Positions 32,502-59,187 of a stretch of DNA of 64,000 nucleotides are shown one piece after another. Source of the stretch: Cryobacterium sp. Y11 (GTDB lineage Bacteria > Actinomycetota > Actinomycetes > Actinomycetales > Microbacteriaceae); contig NZ_PJJO01000060.1 in the NCBI RefSeq assembly GCF_002929535.1, positions 310,001 through 374,000 of the forward strand. Direction: 5' to 3'. The position numbers were made by a program, and so were the translations under genes. The first letter of the stretch is position 1. Every line of letters begins with the position of its first letter. The notes beneath the pieces are model-generated. The model was not told the origin of the DNA and made no database searches. It worked only from the letters and a program-made list of their open reading frames with translations.

Positions 32502-32919
32502 TCAGGCGATCGCGTCGGCGACCGTGAGCAGCTTCGCGTTGAACGCGGACGCAACGTGCTCGTTGATAACAATGCTCCCGTCGTGAACATTTCGCCCCTT
32601 GGCGAGGGCGGCGTCTTCTGCGACAGCCTTCTTCCAGCCCGTCTGGACCAGCGCGATGACGTGGGGCAGGGTCGTGTTGGTCAGCGCACGGGTCGACGTG
32701 GCCGGCACCGCACCGGGCATATTGGCGACGCAGCAGTAGACACTGTCGTGCACGGCGAAGATGGGCGCGTCATGTGTCGTCGCGTGCGAACCCGCAACAC
32801 AGCCGCCCTGGTCGATCGCGACGTCCACCAGTACGGAGCCCGGCTTCATTGACACCGGCCGGCGTAATCGCCACCCGGTTCTCGTTGTTCTAAATTTCAG
32901 CAGGAATGCCGACTAACAC
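32502..32919 (-). pseudogene. ald: alanine dehydrogenase, deleted and nonsense-mutated
   Basis: The start GTG at 32917-32919 behind GGAG gives LVGIPAEI, then an in-frame TAG (32890-32892) where Ald has Lys, then NNENRVAITPAGVN. From there the sequence jumps, after a deletion of about 250 codons and a frame change, to the C-terminal NAD-domain part MKPGSVLVDVAIDQGG followed by normal C-terminal sequence (SVYCCVANMPGAVPATST). Catalytic and most NAD-binding residues are gone. The divergent Lrp-family gene 149 bases away is intact and was probably its regulator (AldR). Confidence 0.92.
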
Positions 32920-51757: not shown

Positions 51758-51773
51758 GTCAGTACATGCTGAC
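51758..51773. promoter_or_regulatory. palindrome over the cmtR-like start codon
   Basis: GTCAG...CTGAC with a 6-base spacer spans the ATG at 51766. It could be an autoregulatory operator for the ArsR-type repressor, but its length is short. Confidence 0.4.
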
Positions 51774-52119
51774 TATTGCCTCGCGGGCGGACGTCATGAA
51801 CCGGCTCGGCCGAGCCCTGGCCGATCCAACCCGGTCCCGCATCCTACTGAGCCTCCTCGACGCCCCCGGGTATCCCGGCCAGCTGGCGCAGAATCTCGGG
51901 CTCACGCGCTCGAATGTTTCCAACCATCTGAGCTGCCTGCGCGGTTGTGGCATCGTCGCGGCGACCCCGGAAGGCCGCGCAACGCGGTACGAGATCGCCG
52001 ACCCACACCTAACCCGCGCCCTCGTCGCCCTGATCGACGTCGTCCTCGCGGTCGACGACGGCAACGAGTGCAGTGACGACGCCTGCGAAGTCCCCCTCTG
52101 TTGCGGAGCCGGCGGATGA
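51766..52119 (+). CDS. cmtR: CmtR-like ArsR-family Cd/Pb sensor
   Basis: The 117-residue winged-helix repressor has helix-turn-helix LGLTRSNVSNHLSCLRGCGI. Cys-57, Cys-61 (CLRGC) and Cys-102 fall at the numbers of the three thiolate ligands of M. tuberculosis CmtR, the Cd(II)/Pb(II) sensor. Further Cys in the C-terminal CEVPLCCG may add ligands. The TGA overlaps the ATG of the cation transporter, so the pair forms a metal-detoxification operon derepressed by metal. Confidence 0.9.
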   Translation: MLTIASRADVMNRLGRALADPTRSRILLSLLDAPGYPGQLAQNLGLTRSNVSNHLSCLRGCGIVAATPEGRATRYEIADPHLTRALVALIDVVLAVDDGNECSDDACEVPLCCGAGG

Positions 52120-52802
52120 CCCGAACCTCAGCGCGCACCATCAGAGCGCTCGGTCTGCCGCGCAAACAGCTCTTGCAACGGCGAATCCGTTGGATCGTCG
52201 CGATCACGATTATCTACAACCTGATCGAGGCGGTCATTGCCCTCGCCGCCGGATCTGTCGCGTCGTCGGCAGCGCTGATCGGTTTCGGTCTCGATTCGAT
52301 TGTCGAGGTGCTCTCGGCCGCCGCCGTCGCCTGGCAGTTCGCCGCGCCGAACCCGGAACAGCGCGAGAAGGTCGCTCTGCGAGTGATCGCTGTCTCCTTT
52401 TTCGCTCTGGCTGGGTATGTCACCGTCGACGCTGCGCTGTCGATCACGGGATTGCGCACGCCAGAACACAGCCCGGTCGGCATCGCGCTCGCGGCGGTAA
52501 GCCTGATGGTGATGCCATTGCTGAGTTGGTTTGAACGTCGCACCGGCCGCGAGCTGGGTTCGGCATCCGCTGTCGCCGACTCCAAACAAACCCTGCTCTG
52601 CGCCTACCTCTCGGCCGCACTACTCATCGGGCTGCTGCTGAACAGCCTGCTCGGGTGGGCGTGGGCCGATGCGGTCGCCGCACTGGTGATTGCCGGTTTC
52701 GCGTTGCGGGAAGGCGTTGAAGCGTGGAAAGGCGACACCTGCGCCACGCCGATTTCTGCGCTGACCGGCGAACGTACCCCCGAGCCCGGGAGCTGCTGCT
52801 AA
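52116..52802 (+). CDS. cation diffusion facilitator-type (TMEM163-like) transporter
   Basis: The 228-residue protein has about six hydrophobic segments. The TM2 site reads FGLDSIVEV (Asp-x3-Glu rather than the YiiP Asp-x3-Asp), and the TM5 region AWADAVAALVIAG has an Asp but no HxxxD. These changes point to altered metal preference. It has no His-rich loop and ends GSCC. The start ATG overlaps the cmtR stop. It should export a divalent metal (Cd, Zn or Pb inferred from the regulator). Confidence 0.8.
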   Translation: MTRTSARTIRALGLPRKQLLQRRIRWIVAITIIYNLIEAVIALAAGSVASSAALIGFGLDSIVEVLSAAAVAWQFAAPNPEQREKVALRVIAVSFFALAGYVTVDAALSITGLRTPEHSPVGIALAAVSLMVMPLLSWFERRTGRELGSASAVADSKQTLLCAYLSAALLIGLLLNSLLGWAWADAVAALVIAGFALREGVEAWKGDTCATPISALTGERTPEPGSCC

Positions 52803-54396: not shown

Positions 54397-54438
54397 CCCC
54401 TCACCACCTGCGTCAGATCCCGAACCGTGAGAAGCATT

Positions 54439-54465
54439 ATTGATTAGATCAATATATTGCAATAT
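54439..54465. promoter_or_regulatory. paired palindromic operators of the SmtB-like repressor
   Basis: Two perfect palindromes abut: ATTGAT-TAG-ATCAAT (54439-54453) and ATATTGCAATAT (54454-54465), 27 bases before the ATG at 54492. Both are AT-rich in a GC-rich genome, as expected for an ArsR-family zinc operator overlapping the promoter. Confidence 0.75.
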
Positions 54466-54491
54466 CTTTATATATCTGCTTCGATAGAAGC

Positions 54492-54785
54492 ATGGCAAGC
54501 GGCGCAGGTGTTGAGGAAGCGGCAGAGATTTTCAAGGCGCTGTCCTCGCCTGCGCGACTGGAGATACTGCATTTTCTTGCTCAATCTGACCTGACTGTCA
54601 CCGCCCTCGTGGAGGCGACAGACCTGTCACAACCGCTCGTGTCGCAACATCTCAAGACACTGAGGTTGGCTCGGCTGGTAACCGCCAGCCGCACCGGGCG
54701 AGAGGTGACTTACGCAATTGCGGATCACCACATCGCCCACGTCGTCGAAGACGCGATCAAGCACGTCCTCGAAGAGGATCTCTAA
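54492..54785 (+). CDS. SmtB/CzrA-like ArsR-family zinc sensor
   Basis: The 97-residue repressor has helix-turn-helix TDLSQPLVSQHLKTLRLARL. Near the C-terminus D78, H80, H91 and E94 match the alpha-5 zinc motif DxH-x10-HxxE/H of SmtB, CzrA and ZiaR. The alpha-3N Cys pair of CadC is absent. Zinc binding should release it from the twin palindromes upstream. It is followed after 31 bases by the His-rich protein gene. Confidence 0.92.
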   Translation: MASGAGVEEAAEIFKALSSPARLEILHFLAQSDLTVTALVEATDLSQPLVSQHLKTLRLARLVTASRTGREVTYAIADHHIAHVVEDAIKHVLEEDL

Positions 54786-54816
54786 TACACACTCACTCGT
54801 TAGAAAAGAAGCAATT

Positions 54817-55113
54817 ATGTCGACAACCGAAATCCACGCCGAGCACGCCCTATCCGAGCATGAGCACGGTGTCGACTGCGGACATCAGGCGATCCAGCAC
54901 GATGACCACACCGACTACGTTCACGACACCCACCACCACGCCCTGCACGACGGTCACTATGACGAGCACGAGTCGAAGGCAGAGCACACGGTCGAAGACC
55001 ACGCTCACGGTGCTGACTGTGGCCACGAATCCGTTAGCCACGACGACCACACTGATTTCGTGCACGACGGCCACAGGCACGCTGAGCACGCGGGTCACTA
55101 CGACGAGCACTAA
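54817..55113 (+). CDS. histidine-rich metal-binding mini-protein
   Basis: The 98-residue protein has about 30% His and nearly 20% Asp/Glu. It is made of two repeats of ~38 residues (HEHGVDCGHQAIQHDDHTDY-type and DHAHGADCGHESVSHDDHTD-type), each with one Cys in DCGH and ending HYDEH. There is no signal peptide, so it is cytosolic. It should buffer or store zinc (or nickel/cobalt) under the adjacent SmtB-like repressor. AAGAAGC precedes the ATG. The repeat arrangement shows it arose by internal duplication. Confidence 0.85.
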   Translation: MSTTEIHAEHALSEHEHGVDCGHQAIQHDDHTDYVHDTHHHALHDGHYDEHESKAEHTVEDHAHGADCGHESVSHDDHTDFVHDGHRHAEHAGHYDEH

Positions 55114-55149
55114 GTAGCGCCCGCCCGAGACTCTCGAGTCTTAAGGCAA

Positions 55150-55186
55150 ACGGGGAGGTCAGTCCACCGCGGACCGGCCTCCCCGT
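55150..55186 (+). terminator. terminator of the zinc-sensor operon
   Basis: A GC-rich stem with two mismatches (ACGGGGAGGTCAGTCC against GGACCGGCCTCCCCGT) and a 5-base loop lies 36 bases after the His-rich gene. A TTGTC stretch follows. Confidence 0.6.
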
Positions 55187-55346
55187 TGTCATATGCCCGA
55201 CTACCCAACATCGTCTCGACGTCGCGATCATCCTGCAAGCCGCATTCGTCGACGAAAGTCACTGCGCCGAGTCGTACGAGCAGACCGCCGCGATCGGCGC
55301 ACCGGTGGGAGCTAGATCGTTCGCCACGGTGCATGCCACCCGTGCG

Positions 55347-55772
55347 TCAACGCTCGGGGCTACGGGTCCGGATAGGTTTGCCGGTCCCGAGGACGGCGCT
55401 GTATAGCGCGGCTGGGATGTCGTCTGCCGGTGCGTGGATGCGCACCGGGCCGCCGGATGCTATCCAGCCCAGGAGGGCATCCAGAGCGACCGGTTGATCG
55501 AGGCCACCCAGCCACACGGACGGACCCGTCATGCCGGTGCTTCCATCGCGGCGGGCCACCGCAGCGACAGCCCCGCGGGCGCAGGCTCCCAGACATTCGG
55601 TGGAAACCAGGATCGCACCTCGGCTGGCTGCGATTGTTGACCGCAACCGGTCGGCACCGTTTTGGCCATCAGCCAGGCGGTGGAGCGCGTTACAGCGGTA
55701 GCCAGCGCACAGGGCCACGAGCGGACCGCTGGCTTCCTGGTCGGTCAGGGTTGTCACTTTTGTGTGTTTCAT
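55347..55772 (-). CDS. thioredoxin-like [2Fe-2S] ferredoxin-domain protein
   Basis: The 141-residue protein has four Cys arranged as CxxxxC (CAGYRC, residues near 20-25) and CxxxC (CLGAC), the pattern of thioredoxin-fold [2Fe-2S] ferredoxins. The remainder is Ala/Gly-rich without other motifs. I chose the ATG at 55772 (MKHTKVTTL); the longer ORF's first 42 residues look non-coding. It follows the COG0523 GTPase gene by 49 bases on the same strand. Its use in a metal-insertion or redox step is inferred. Confidence 0.7.
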   Translation of the reverse strand: MKHTKVTTLTDQEASGPLVALCAGYRCNALHRLADGQNGADRLRSTIAASRGAILVSTECLGACARGAVAAVARRDGSTGMTGPSVWLGGLDQPVALDALLGWIASGGPVRIHAPADDIPAALYSAVLGTGKPIRTRSPER

Positions 55773-55821
55773 TGCGGGCACCGATTCTGTCGTGTCGGAG
55801 TGGATATGACGTGGTGGAGTC

Positions 55822-56850
55822 TCAGTCAACGTCAAGGTCCCAGGCCGGAAAGGGGTCGGCCAGGGATTTCCATTCGCTAGGATCGCCGATGAATTCACGG
55901 TTGGTCAGCAGGCAGGCGTCGAGGTTCGCGGTGAGCTTGATCCCGTCGAGGTTCTTGCCAAAGAAGGCGATCTCCTGGCCCCAAGGAGACTCGGGGTCGT
56001 GGCTGCCCATACTGGTCGGTTCGAAGCCGATGGTCGGGCCTGCGCTATTCCACGAACCCACAACGTGGGGCCGGGATGCGAGACGGAACAGGCCGCGCGA
56101 GCGCAGGATCTCCCCCGATTTGGCCGCCTTGTCGCTGAGAAATTTCGCGAGCCGGCCCGGGTGAAACGGTCGAGGATCACGGTAAACGACGCATCCAAGC
56201 CCGATACCGCTCGAAGTTAGCAGCCCCTCACCGTTGAGCTGACGAATCCAACCGGGGCTTTGCTGCAGCCAAGCCAACATGTTCTCTCGGGGAGGGAACC
56301 ATGGTTTTACCGAGGTACGCCCATGGCGAGCGAAAACGACATGACTAGAGGGGTTGAGCAGCCGCACGAAGTCACGCAGGTCAGCACAGTCGGCCGCCGT
56401 GGCCAGGTCGGTCTTGTTGATCACCACAACGCTCGCCCACTCGATCTGCTCAACCAAAGCATCGGCAATCGTCCGGTCGTGCTCACCATGCGTGACACAG
56501 GAGACGGGAGGAATCGGCGCAAGAGCATCGCTACGGATGCCCGCCCAAAACGTGGACGCGTCCAGCACGCTCACAAAATTGCCGATGCGGAGGACTTCAG
56601 CATCGGGCCGCAGCGCCCGGTCGCCACCCGCAGCGATAACCGACATCGCCACCTCGATCGGAACTATGGACGGATGAATCTCCAACATCACCTCTGTCCG
56701 GGTAATGCCGGCAATGGCATTGGAAACGGCGCTGCGATCTGAGCCAGCGAGACGGATGCTGGTTGTCCCGCTGGCCCGCGCGATGGACGATTTACCGGCA
56801 CCGGCAAGTCCGCTAACGAGGTTCACTGTGAGAGAGGGAGACGTGATCAT
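55822..56850 (-). CDS. COG0523 (CobW/Zng1-like) GTPase without CxCC motif
   Basis: The 342-residue metallochaperone-type GTPase has Walker A SGLAGAGKSSIARASG, NKxD motif VVINKTDLATA, and the CobW C-terminal domain (CVVYRDPRPFHPGRLAKFL then SRPHVVGSWNSAGPTIG). The GCxCC metal motif normally found after Walker A is missing; the segment reads TRTEVMLEIHPSIVPIEVAM. Actinobacterial Zur-regulated members often sit beside ribosomal-protein paralogue genes, as here. The divergent rpmJ start is 47 bases away across a putative Zur box. Confidence 0.85.
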   Translation of the reverse strand: MITSPSLTVNLVSGLAGAGKSSIARASGTTSIRLAGSDRSAVSNAIAGITRTEVMLEIHPSIVPIEVAMSVIAAGGDRALRPDAEVLRIGNFVSVLDASTFWAGIRSDALAPIPPVSCVTHGEHDRTIADALVEQIEWASVVVINKTDLATAADCADLRDFVRLLNPSSHVVFARHGRTSVKPWFPPRENMLAWLQQSPGWIRQLNGEGLLTSSGIGLGCVVYRDPRPFHPGRLAKFLSDKAAKSGEILRSRGLFRLASRPHVVGSWNSAGPTIGFEPTSMGSHDPESPWGQEIAFFGKNLDGIKLTANLDACLLTNREFIGDPSEWKSLADPFPAWDLDVD

Positions 56851-56864
56851 GACTGCTACTCTAA

Positions 56865-56881
56865 TTGATATTCGTTCTCAA
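56865..56881. promoter_or_regulatory. putative Zur box
   Basis: TTGATATTCGTTCTCAA has TTGA/TCAA arms with a partly symmetric AT-rich core in the 47-base gap between the divergent COG0523 GTPase and rpmJ genes. Position and gene pairing match Zur regulation in actinobacteria. The match to the canonical box is incomplete. Confidence 0.5.
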
Positions 56882-56897
56882 CAAGAAAGATGTGACC

Positions 56898-57020
56898 ATG
56901 AAAGTTCGAAATTCACTCAAAGCGCTCAAGAAGCTCCCCGGCGCACAGATCGTGCACAGACGGGGACGCGTTTTCGTGATCAACAAGAAGAACCCGCGGC
57001 TGAAGGCTCGGCAGGGTTAG
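56898..57020 (+). CDS. rpmJ: ribosomal protein bL36, cysteine-free (zinc-independent) paralogue
   Basis: The 40-residue protein [20 protein letters not shown] is followed by [20 protein letters not shown]. The zinc-binding Cys/His set of the C+ form is absent, so this is the C- paralogue that replaces the zinc form during zinc starvation to free zinc. It is too short for many gene callers. It diverges from the COG0523 GTPase gene. Confidence 0.93.
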
Positions 57021-58353: not shown

Positions 58354-59187
58354 CTACGATTTGATCGTGGAACTTTTGAGGCTTGCGGCGTCTTCCAACG
58401 ACAGCTCGGAGTCGGCAAAGGCTTGGTCATCCGCAAAAGACTTCATGCGCGCGATACGATAGATGATTAGGCCGTAGAGGCATTTGGCGAGAATATCAGC
58501 CACGGAATAACCGATCTGCAGGCCTACCCAAGCGTCGGATCCGTCGATGCCGATGCCGGGCAGTAGGTACGCGATCGGATAGACACCCCAGGTGGCCAGC
58601 AGCAGCAGTCGCAGTAGGCTGATGGTTTTGCGCACCGTGGCGGGCTGCCGTTTCAGCGATCGAGTCAGCTCAACGAAGAGCACATAGAGGATGTACGCGA
58701 ACGGAATCGAGGACAGCAAGCCGAAGATGCCGCGGGTCAGGTTGTCCGAAGCCATCTCTCCGGGGTAACCGAGGGCGATCATGAGGGCGGCGGCGGGAAT
58801 CAGCCGAGTGAGCAGGCTGCTTTGCACTTTACGCGCCAGGGCCAGAACAGCCACGAGCTCGAGCAGCAATAGCGGCACAGTGAGGAGCCAATCGACGTAC
58901 CGGTAGCCCTCATTGAAGGATGCTCCGGCAACTTGGGCATAGTTGCCGCGGCCACCGATGGCGTCAGTGACGAACGCCTCGGTAAAGGAGTTGAAGATGC
59001 GGAAGTAGTGGTACGCCGCAATGCCACAGACGATGGCAGCGACGGTCATCGCCTGGCGGTAGCGCGGCAGCACTCGCGGCAGACAGACGACCAGAAAAAT
59101 AGACGTAAACAGCTGCGAAGCGATCACGAAAGAAAACACGTTGTAGATGGTGTCGTATTGGATTTGGGTTAGGGAGTCAGGTATCAA
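58354..59187 (-). CDS. xanthorhodopsin-like proton-pumping rhodopsin
   Basis: The 277-residue seven-helix retinal protein is a light-driven proton pump. Residues: R96 and D99 (counterion/acceptor), T103, E110 (donor), giving the DTE motif; H60 partner of D99; D231 and the retinal Schiff-base K235; L107 at the spectral-tuning position, predicting green absorption. G156 in helix E (TRGIFGLLSS) is the glycine that leaves the fenestration for a carotenoid antenna in xanthorhodopsin and Gloeobacter rhodopsin. No carotenoid or retinal synthesis genes are in the window. It is monocistronic. Confidence 0.95.
   Translation of the reverse strand: MIPDSLTQIQYDTIYNVFSFVIASQLFTSIFLVVCLPRVLPRYRQAMTVAAIVCGIAAYHYFRIFNSFTEAFVTDAIGGRGNYAQVAGASFNEGYRYVDWLLTVPLLLLELVAVLALARKVQSSLLTRLIPAAALMIALGYPGEMASDNLTRGIFGLLSSIPFAYILYVLFVELTRSLKRQPATVRKTISLLRLLLLATWGVYPIAYLLPGIGIDGSDAWVGLQIGYSVADILAKCLYGLIIYRIARMKSFADDQAFADSELSLEDAASLKSSTIKS

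Follow-up and report, generated by a model that had tools for sequence, protein, structure and literature searches.

To our knowledge, most of what is known of dedicated zinc storage in bacteria concerns the metallothioneins of cyanobacteria, and the cyanobacterial smtB-smtA pair reportedly couples the repressor SmtB with a metallothionein. According to the available portion of a study of Synechococcus WH8102, Zur activates the metallothionein gene bmtA in a setting for which only SmtB-type repression had been reported earlier (PMC9337993). Similarly, the accessible part of PMC5472717 describes activation of zitB by Zur in Streptomyces coelicolor, from a box 8 nucleotides (nt) upstream of the -35 of a promoter with no A at -11. 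Here we analyze a stretch of 64,000 nucleotides from Cryobacterium sp. Y11 (the window), in which genes for an ArsR/SmtB-type sensor and a His-rich protein lie next to genes for a [2Fe-2S] protein, a protein resembling COG0523 GTPases and a Cys-free ribosomal protein bL36. Our analysis suggests, with a probability of roughly 60%, that the ArsR/His-rich operon is a zinc-surplus buffer that is derepressed through ArsR and probably activated by zinc-loaded Zur (Zn-Zur). Taken as a whole, the island most plausibly combines zinc banking with zinc sparing next to it, its starvation arm being a standard set of Zur-boxed genes in which the COG0523-like protein is non-canonical.

The promoter of the ArsR/His-rich operon has a composite layout that is common to its relatives: a Zur-type 7-1-7 palindrome, then 8 nt, then ACATATTGCAATnnnTTTATATGTGTGG lying over TTGCAA-17-TnnnnT. 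The second part is a 28-nt element, the inverted repeat ACATAT-N12-ATATGT, which, with up to 2 mismatches allowed, has a single site in its own genome and which we predict to be the probable ArsR/SmtB operator; its overlap with the -35 and the spacer suits repression by ArsR. Since only 6 nt separate the putative -10 TTCGAT from the ATG of ArsR, the transcript is probably leaderless with its start at 54492, the promoter assignment itself being putative. The sequence-only reading of this region had noted twin palindromes, and these are indeed present at 54440-54452 and 54454-54465, but the conserved part is only ATTGCAAT of the second; the Zur-type box, at 54427-54443, begins just 5' of the segment (from 54439) to which that reading was confined. 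We also considered TTGATTAGATCAA as a conserved operator and rejected it because relatives do not retain it.

To score Zur-type boxes we used a matrix trained solely on 34 boxes from bL36 promoters. The 28-nt element was counted over 95 loci with the His-rich unit, with identical promoters pooled (65 to 62) and with loci numbered 100 or above, which are re-fetched or same-genus copies, left out; the same-genus ones were scored separately. The element is present at 65 of the 95 loci, and in 51 of the 62 unique promoters a Zur-type 17-mer with a score of at least 4 precedes it by 7-9 nt, in 46 of them by exactly 8 nt; a score of at least 10 is reached in 39 of the 62. Mononucleotide-shuffled flanks gave means of 0.08 and 0.01 at these two thresholds, with maxima of 2 and 1. 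If one member is taken per genus group, with group labels partly assigned by hand, a mean of 25.4 out of 34 groups have the box (minimum 24, shuffled 0.06), where 34 is an upper count, as Agreia and g149 overlap, Mycetocola and g128 likewise, and g145 is split in two. The box occurs at that spacing in six of the seven family groups having the element, one of which (f1) comprises Microbacterium, Rathayibacter, Agreia, Naasia and Mycetocola, a placement supported for the last three only. In all four intact same-genus copies the box stands at exactly 8 nt, scoring 12.2 in the window, 14.2 in L173, 7.0 in L174 and 12.5 in L175. As a separate observation, L175 (2184-2251) has two tandem Zur-type boxes before its ArsR/His-rich pair, the second scoring 21.4 and lying 51 nt further upstream.

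A count from the start codon gives a similar picture. Among 56 regions in which an ArsR match lies no more than 450 nt in front of the His-rich gene, the center of the best Zur match with a score of at least 4 precedes the start codon by 56-58 nt in 39, and 32 have a match scoring at least 10 within 130 nt, for which dinucleotide shuffling gave a mean of 0.4 and a maximum of 2. The misses include L033, L037, L060 and L069, where the composite precedes the His-rich gene instead. More generally, at loci where the His-rich gene does not immediately follow ArsR, it is the His-rich gene and not arsR that has the composite directly in front of it (examples are L033, L037, L060, L073, L081-L083, L089, L096 and L097), and thus the composite follows the buffer gene even when this is split from ArsR. 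Judged by matrix and position, then, the ArsR/His-rich operon has a Zur-type box at a conserved place. Of the two separate zinc logics that had been proposed for the island, the sensor, the His-rich protein and the Zur-boxed arm all stand; however, because the His-rich operon has, at about -57, a conserved Zur-type box of its own, the surplus and starvation arms are probably joined rather than separate.

All five genes of the sequence-only reading were located, at 54492-57020. The sensor is an ArsR-family winged helix (PF01022, expectation value (E) 4.3e-15; NF033788, 88.5 bits against a cut-off of 55), and its assignment as a SmtB-type repressor with D78, H80, H91 and E94 is upheld, since these positions align with SmtB and each is found in 62/62 distinct ArsR sequences lying within 1.5 kilobases (kb) of the His-rich gene in the same direction. 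Position 79 varies freely, and Cys is absent from the aligned part in 56 of the 62. The D-x-H...H-x2-E set is, we presume from what is known of SmtB, that of the alpha5 ligands, and by this alignment the sensor is of SmtB type with an intact alpha5 ligand set. Its closest solved relatives are 8qkf (3e-22) and SmtB (4.3e-15); NmtR is a further relative.

The His-rich protein contains two diverged units, as had been recognized, encoded by a 72-nt direct repeat with 78% identity. With 26 His and two Cys (one per unit) in 98 residues it falls outside a Cys-rich definition and so is not a metallothionein, though it may work like one. While Pfam and NCBIfam yielded no useful family for it, only a meaningless Malectin match (E 0.55), its relatives place it in a conserved actinobacterial family. 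A search for the ArsR/His-rich pair in genomes of the family, proposed earlier, did find relatives: with fusions counted, the unit is present in 56 of 198 genomes at the level of the order, in 27 of 199 within the family and in 6 of the 57 that represent the genus, as well as at 36 loci in a separate collection of genome contigs. Free forms have one unit (51-61 residues) or two (about 98), and 20 aligned two-unit proteins share 35 invariant positions, of which 23 are His. Two of the six genus genomes have a His-rich gene with in-frame stops. In two same-genus genomes partial, stop-bearing copies lie near the COG0523-like/bL36 locus (L176, 1495-1647; L177, 1498-1614), pointing to presence and loss at this site inside the genus.

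In seven loci (L025, L027, L028, L030, L031, L032 and L064) the unit forms the C-terminus of proteins of 317-346 residues, and all seven are ABC-3 (ZnuB-type) permeases, over the PF00950 cut-off with E 7e-55 or better. Permease tails built of this unit provide sequence evidence for the earlier idea that the His-rich protein draws on the same zinc pool. The ABC-3 permeases of the genome itself carry no His-rich tail, and the unit query P0002 matched once genome-wide. Free units seen on plasmids bear the RefSeq name 'zinc transporter permease', for which the fusions are probably the explanation. Free single units so annotated are found on plasmids of Rhodococcus (L169, 5980-6129) and Citricoccus (L170, 5989-6144), each with a recombinase gene at most 0.5 kb away. 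The plasmid neighbors, viewed for three of six matches, included recombinases in two of the three and no zinc genes, and were set aside.

We now turn to the starvation arm. The TTGA...TCAA box between the COG0523-like gene and bL36, picked out earlier from the sequence, matches TTGANAWYNNTTMTCAA exactly, as only one other place in the genome of 4.03 Mb does; that second match lies 18 nt before a znuA-like gene. At up to two mismatches the genome holds 23+22 matches to the pattern, against 13+5 for a reversed control. The bL36 promoters of related loci have the consensus TTGAkAAynnTTmTCAA; the box was found in 34 of 35 distinct bL36 upstream regions and in 33 of the 35 its center falls 21-26 nt ahead of the start codon, the exceptions being L062 and L110. 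The box is thus predicted to be Zur's, its position at bL36 is a repressing one, and the regulation of this arm is ordinary. A general pattern, TGAWANNCGNTNTCA, was tried as well, but of its three sites in the genome two are away from zinc genes (by eye), and the bL36-trained matrix was used instead. The genome has two FUR-family genes and a znuA-C-B-B'-zur cluster (by eye), in which Zur-type boxes precede znuA, both permeases exceed the ABC-3 cut-off and the last gene is in the FUR family. The bL36 of the window is of type B (NF002021, 76.1 bits against a cut-off of 70) and has no Cys, as had been claimed, and a second bL36, which does contain Cys, is found at another place on this contig, flanked by frames that resemble IF-1 and S13 by eye.

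The description of its neighbor as a COG0523 GTPase survives in part. The protein has a Walker A motif (GLAGAGKS) and NKTD and matches CobW_C (E 1.3e-15) and cobW (E 5.2e-07), but it lacks the CXCC of switch I, a motif which the available text of PMC2770081 states for all COG0523 members. By this test the protein is COG0523-like and not a COG0523 member, and hence the gene does not encode a canonical COG0523 metallochaperone. The NCBIfam scores are 150.3 bits for ZigA (cut-off 600) and 57.4 for MRF (cut-off 375). CXCC was found in none of 36 COG0523-like frames at such loci (the window copy and two partial frames included), Walker A in 9 and NKxD in 11. Proteins of this kind beside Cys-free bL36 (L048, L033, L057 and others) mostly lack both motifs and look like a pseudo-GTPase branch.

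How closely are the two arms linked among relatives? COG0523-like and bL36 genes lie within 9 kb of the unit at 25 of 76 loci and do not at 51, within the sequence covered; the 76 are 36 + 40 loci from two sets, duplicates included (for instance L037/L124, L036/L125, L058/L126). Three layouts occur. In 18 loci of Microbacterium type COG0523-like|bL36 is followed by ArsR-His, to which a weak case can be added (L062, with a COG0523-like identity of 26% and no Zur box at bL36); in L033, L060, L132 and L140 ArsR-His faces bL36|COG0523-like; and in L057 and L128, as also in the window and L102, ArsR-His faces COG0523-like|bL36. The same neighbors in varied layouts argue for a functional linkage or for repeated co-transfer. 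As proof of function we rejected this neighborhood, because no more than 25 of the 76 loci show it and 18 of those are of Microbacterium type: it supports but does not prove.

The [2Fe-2S] protein had been called an unusual companion, which holds insofar as few genomes have it: 15 of 149 genomes have a relative, 10 of these genomes (our own included) belong to the same genus, and most of the 57 genomes of that genus are without it. However, its place is kept, since in 8/8 same-genus relatives without a stop (L101-L108) its gene adjoins the COG0523-like gene and bL36. L109, a match with a stop, has only pieces of the gene, and the same-genus COG0523-like/bL36 locus L177 has no [2Fe-2S] gene. 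Within the family C22, C27 and C60 are nearly invariant and C64 is invariant; the first spacing, C-x4-C, is shorter than that usual in thioredoxin-like [2Fe-2S] ferredoxins. Family searches of the window protein returned DUF1636 only (Pfam/NCBIfam, E 0.094), and the Pfam family 2Fe-2S_thioredx matched one of 15 members weakly (E 0.014). Its structure model (predicted local distance difference test, pLDDT, 82.8) matched, at E of at most 0.001, two chains of 9jn8 in the PDB, a thioredoxin-like ferredoxin (3.5e-05; template-modelling scores 0.49/0.60), and, more weakly, 1f37 (2.8e-03) and NuoE-type subunits. A profile search agrees weakly (best 9mqx, E 0.0027), and the query P0004 gave no match to solved structures at E of at most 0.01. 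Judged by the model, the companion has a thioredoxin-like ferredoxin fold. Distant relatives occur in L115 (3-1827), where one follows a ZnuB-like/His-unit fusion, an independent tie to metal import, and in L110, near bL36.

How could one locus both store and spare zinc? At low zinc, apo-ArsR sitting over the -35 and spacer would keep the operon off, and apo-Zur, being off the DNA, would leave the COG0523-like, [2Fe-2S] and Cys-free bL36 genes on. As zinc rises, Zn-Zur would repress these starvation genes together with znu, and would also bind the box at about -57, outside the core promoter, aiding polymerase at a weak promoter with no A at -11. At still higher zinc, metal in the alpha5 site would release ArsR so that the cytosolic buffer is made, and in later starvation the stored zinc could be handed back. 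The genes, the conserved ligands, the composite layout, the scarcity of its sites across the genome, the recurring neighborhood and the permease tails are observed; which protein pairs with which site, that Zur activates, where the promoter lies, that the buffer binds zinc and that it gives zinc back are what we infer. A fuller version, which we hold only tentatively and at somewhat less than even odds, is a two-sensor zinc-banking operon in which Zn-Zur activates and ArsR gates a His-based store whose unit is interchangeable with the cytosolic importer tail; a single Zur would, at adjacent promoters, turn starvation genes off and storage on, and the store would later supply cells with the CXCC-free COG0523-like and [2Fe-2S] proteins and zinc-free ribosomes.

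Several observations weigh against a Zur-activated surplus buffer. The box is missing from its place in 11 of the 62 promoters (L008, L010, L011, L012, L022, L029, L075, L078-L080 and L086), and the element is absent from 30 of the 95 loci, among which fusions are counted. The best score in the window is that of the bL36 box, 27.1; the His-rich promoter box, second in the 64 kb, reaches 12.2, with a third-best score of 11.8 at 32563 close behind; given this narrow margin the window score alone is weak, and the case rests on conservation. Moreover, the training boxes score 22-31 in 33 of 34 cases (15.6 in one), so that the affinity of Zur for the His-rich promoter box may be low. The gap from box to -35 is 13-14 nt as against the 8 given for zitB in the consulted part of that study, alike but not equal. 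The family is patchy (27/199 and 6/57, two with stops), from which it follows that the His-rich protein is dispensable, and the ABC-3 permease tails suggest import rather than surplus. Finally, AlphaFold, modelling the His-rich protein metal-free, gave no confident fold (pLDDT 48.6), and a structural claim and fold search were dropped on that account.

The permease tails invite the reading that the His-rich protein is an import-side acceptor, taking zinc from the ABC (ATP-binding cassette) importer or passing it to client proteins; the unit moreover adjoins Zur-boxed genes in all three layouts. We nevertheless regard this as unlikely, at perhaps one chance in a few, since the window operon is under a surplus-type sensor and the ABC-3 permeases of its own genome are tailless. 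Slightly less probable still is double repression, by Zur from the upstream box and by ArsR from the core, so that expression would be steady or limited to a narrow range, as at smtB-zur of Mycobacterium smegmatis, which SmtB and Zur co-regulate according to the available part of PMC7174638. Zur is mostly a repressor, and in Microbacterium-type loci, where the operon lies about 0.1-0.3 kb behind the Zur-boxed bL36 on the same strand, read-through from a promoter that Zur represses is possible; however, in the 39 of 56 promoters with the box centered at 56-58 nt it lies upstream of the -35 and leaves the core promoter uncovered, and the activating site of zitB has a similar relative place in what we have of PMC5472717.

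Might the upstream palindrome belong to another protein altogether, a second ArsR or another member of the Fur family? It was located by matrix rather than by binding, and some members (GATCATC and GACGATC forms) are unlike the bL36 boxes. Against this, the palindrome has the 7-1-7 symmetry of Zur sites and a GAGAAC-N-GTTCTC core as at znuA and bL36, unlike the ArsR element, and the only other FUR-family match adjoins a catalase-like frame (by eye), which, furA and catalase genes being linked, suggests FurA; we consider this possibility improbable. Just as doubtful is a sensor answering to Ni, Co or Cd with the His-rich protein as a general metal sink. His-rich proteins often bind Ni or Co, and NmtR is a relative of the sensor, but the alpha5 D/H/H/E set is invariant, the window sensor has no Cys, its best solved relatives are 8qkf and SmtB, and the operon is linked to Zur-type sites and ABC-3 permeases. 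The zinc-surplus buffer thus remains the reading we prefer, and the features on which it is built are collected in the table.

Table. Predicted features of the zinc island, in window coordinates.
Feature	Position	Strand	Basis
Zur-type box (GTGAGAAGCATTATTGA), center -57 from ArsR start codon	54427..54443	+	matrix score 12.2, position conserved
Probable ArsR/SmtB operator, ATATAT-N12-ATATAT, contains ATTGCAAT, over -35 and spacer	54452..54479	+	conserved element; ArsR assignment by inference
Putative -35 TTGCAA	54457..54462	+	conserved columns
Putative -10 TTCGAT, 17 nt from the -35, lacking A at -11	54480..54485	+	conserved T28 (0.84), T33 (0.95); by inference
ArsR/SmtB-type zinc sensor, 97 residues, no Cys	54492..54785	+	family match, SmtB alignment, ligand conservation
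His-rich two-unit protein, 98 residues, proposed zinc buffer	54817..55113	+	sequence, relatives
Thioredoxin-like [2Fe-2S] ferredoxin-type protein, 141 residues (C22, C27, C60, C64)	55347..55772	-	model, alignment
COG0523-like protein, Walker A and NKxD, without CXCC	55822..56850	-	family matches, motif scan
Zur-type box between COG0523-like gene and bL36	56865..56881	.	matrix, exact pattern
Cys-free bL36 (type B)	56898..57020	+	NF002021

Beyond the island, a second ArsR gene overlaps a cation-efflux-like gene (51766-52802, +), and in Agreia (L034-L036) relatives of both genes are at a distance of roughly 2-4 kb, or more, from the His-rich pair. A 277-residue protein at 58354-59187 (-) has the look of a microbial rhodopsin (RYVDWLLTVPLLLLEL and ADILAKC stretches; by eye).

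If our reading is true, a widespread actinobacterial His-rich store under joint Zur and SmtB-type control would show how uptake, storage and the sparing of zinc in ribosomes are graded within one cell, and small proteins annotated 'zinc transporter permease' would gain a function. The composite promoter has a precise 60-base-pair layout. Furthermore, the CXCC-free and often GTPase-motif-free COG0523-like proteins beside Cys-free bL36 call into question the metallochaperone label of this Zur-boxed branch. In the open-access literature we found no description of the composite promoter or of the free His-rich protein.

Like smtB-smtA, the window pairs an alpha5 sensor with an adjacent small metal-binding protein, expected to be derepressed through it; unlike smtA, the second gene encodes a repeat protein of His, Asp and Glu in which each unit has one Cys, and a Zur-type box is added. 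ABC-3 permeases with a His-rich tail have the unit in common with the window, where it is free-standing, doubled and without a permease. The mycobacterial smtB-zur system, in the parts of PMC7174638 and PMC2770081 available, also brings SmtB and Zur together on one promoter, and it has a Zur-repressed COG0523-like protein, Rv0106, without canonical motifs, and alternative ribosomal proteins in the Zur regulon; there, however, SmtB controls zitA and sits with zur, and those parts describe no composite at a His-rich buffer. With bmtA of Synechococcus WH8102 the window shares a Zur site at a zinc-storage gene, activated there with zinc, whereas the bmtA product is a metallothionein, that Zur is unusual and the available portion describes no SmtB-type co-regulator (PMC9337993). 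Similarly, zitB encodes an exporter and the accessible part of its description mentions no ArsR site (PMC5472717), yet, as at zitB, the Zur-type box of the window lies upstream of the -35 of a promoter without A at -11.

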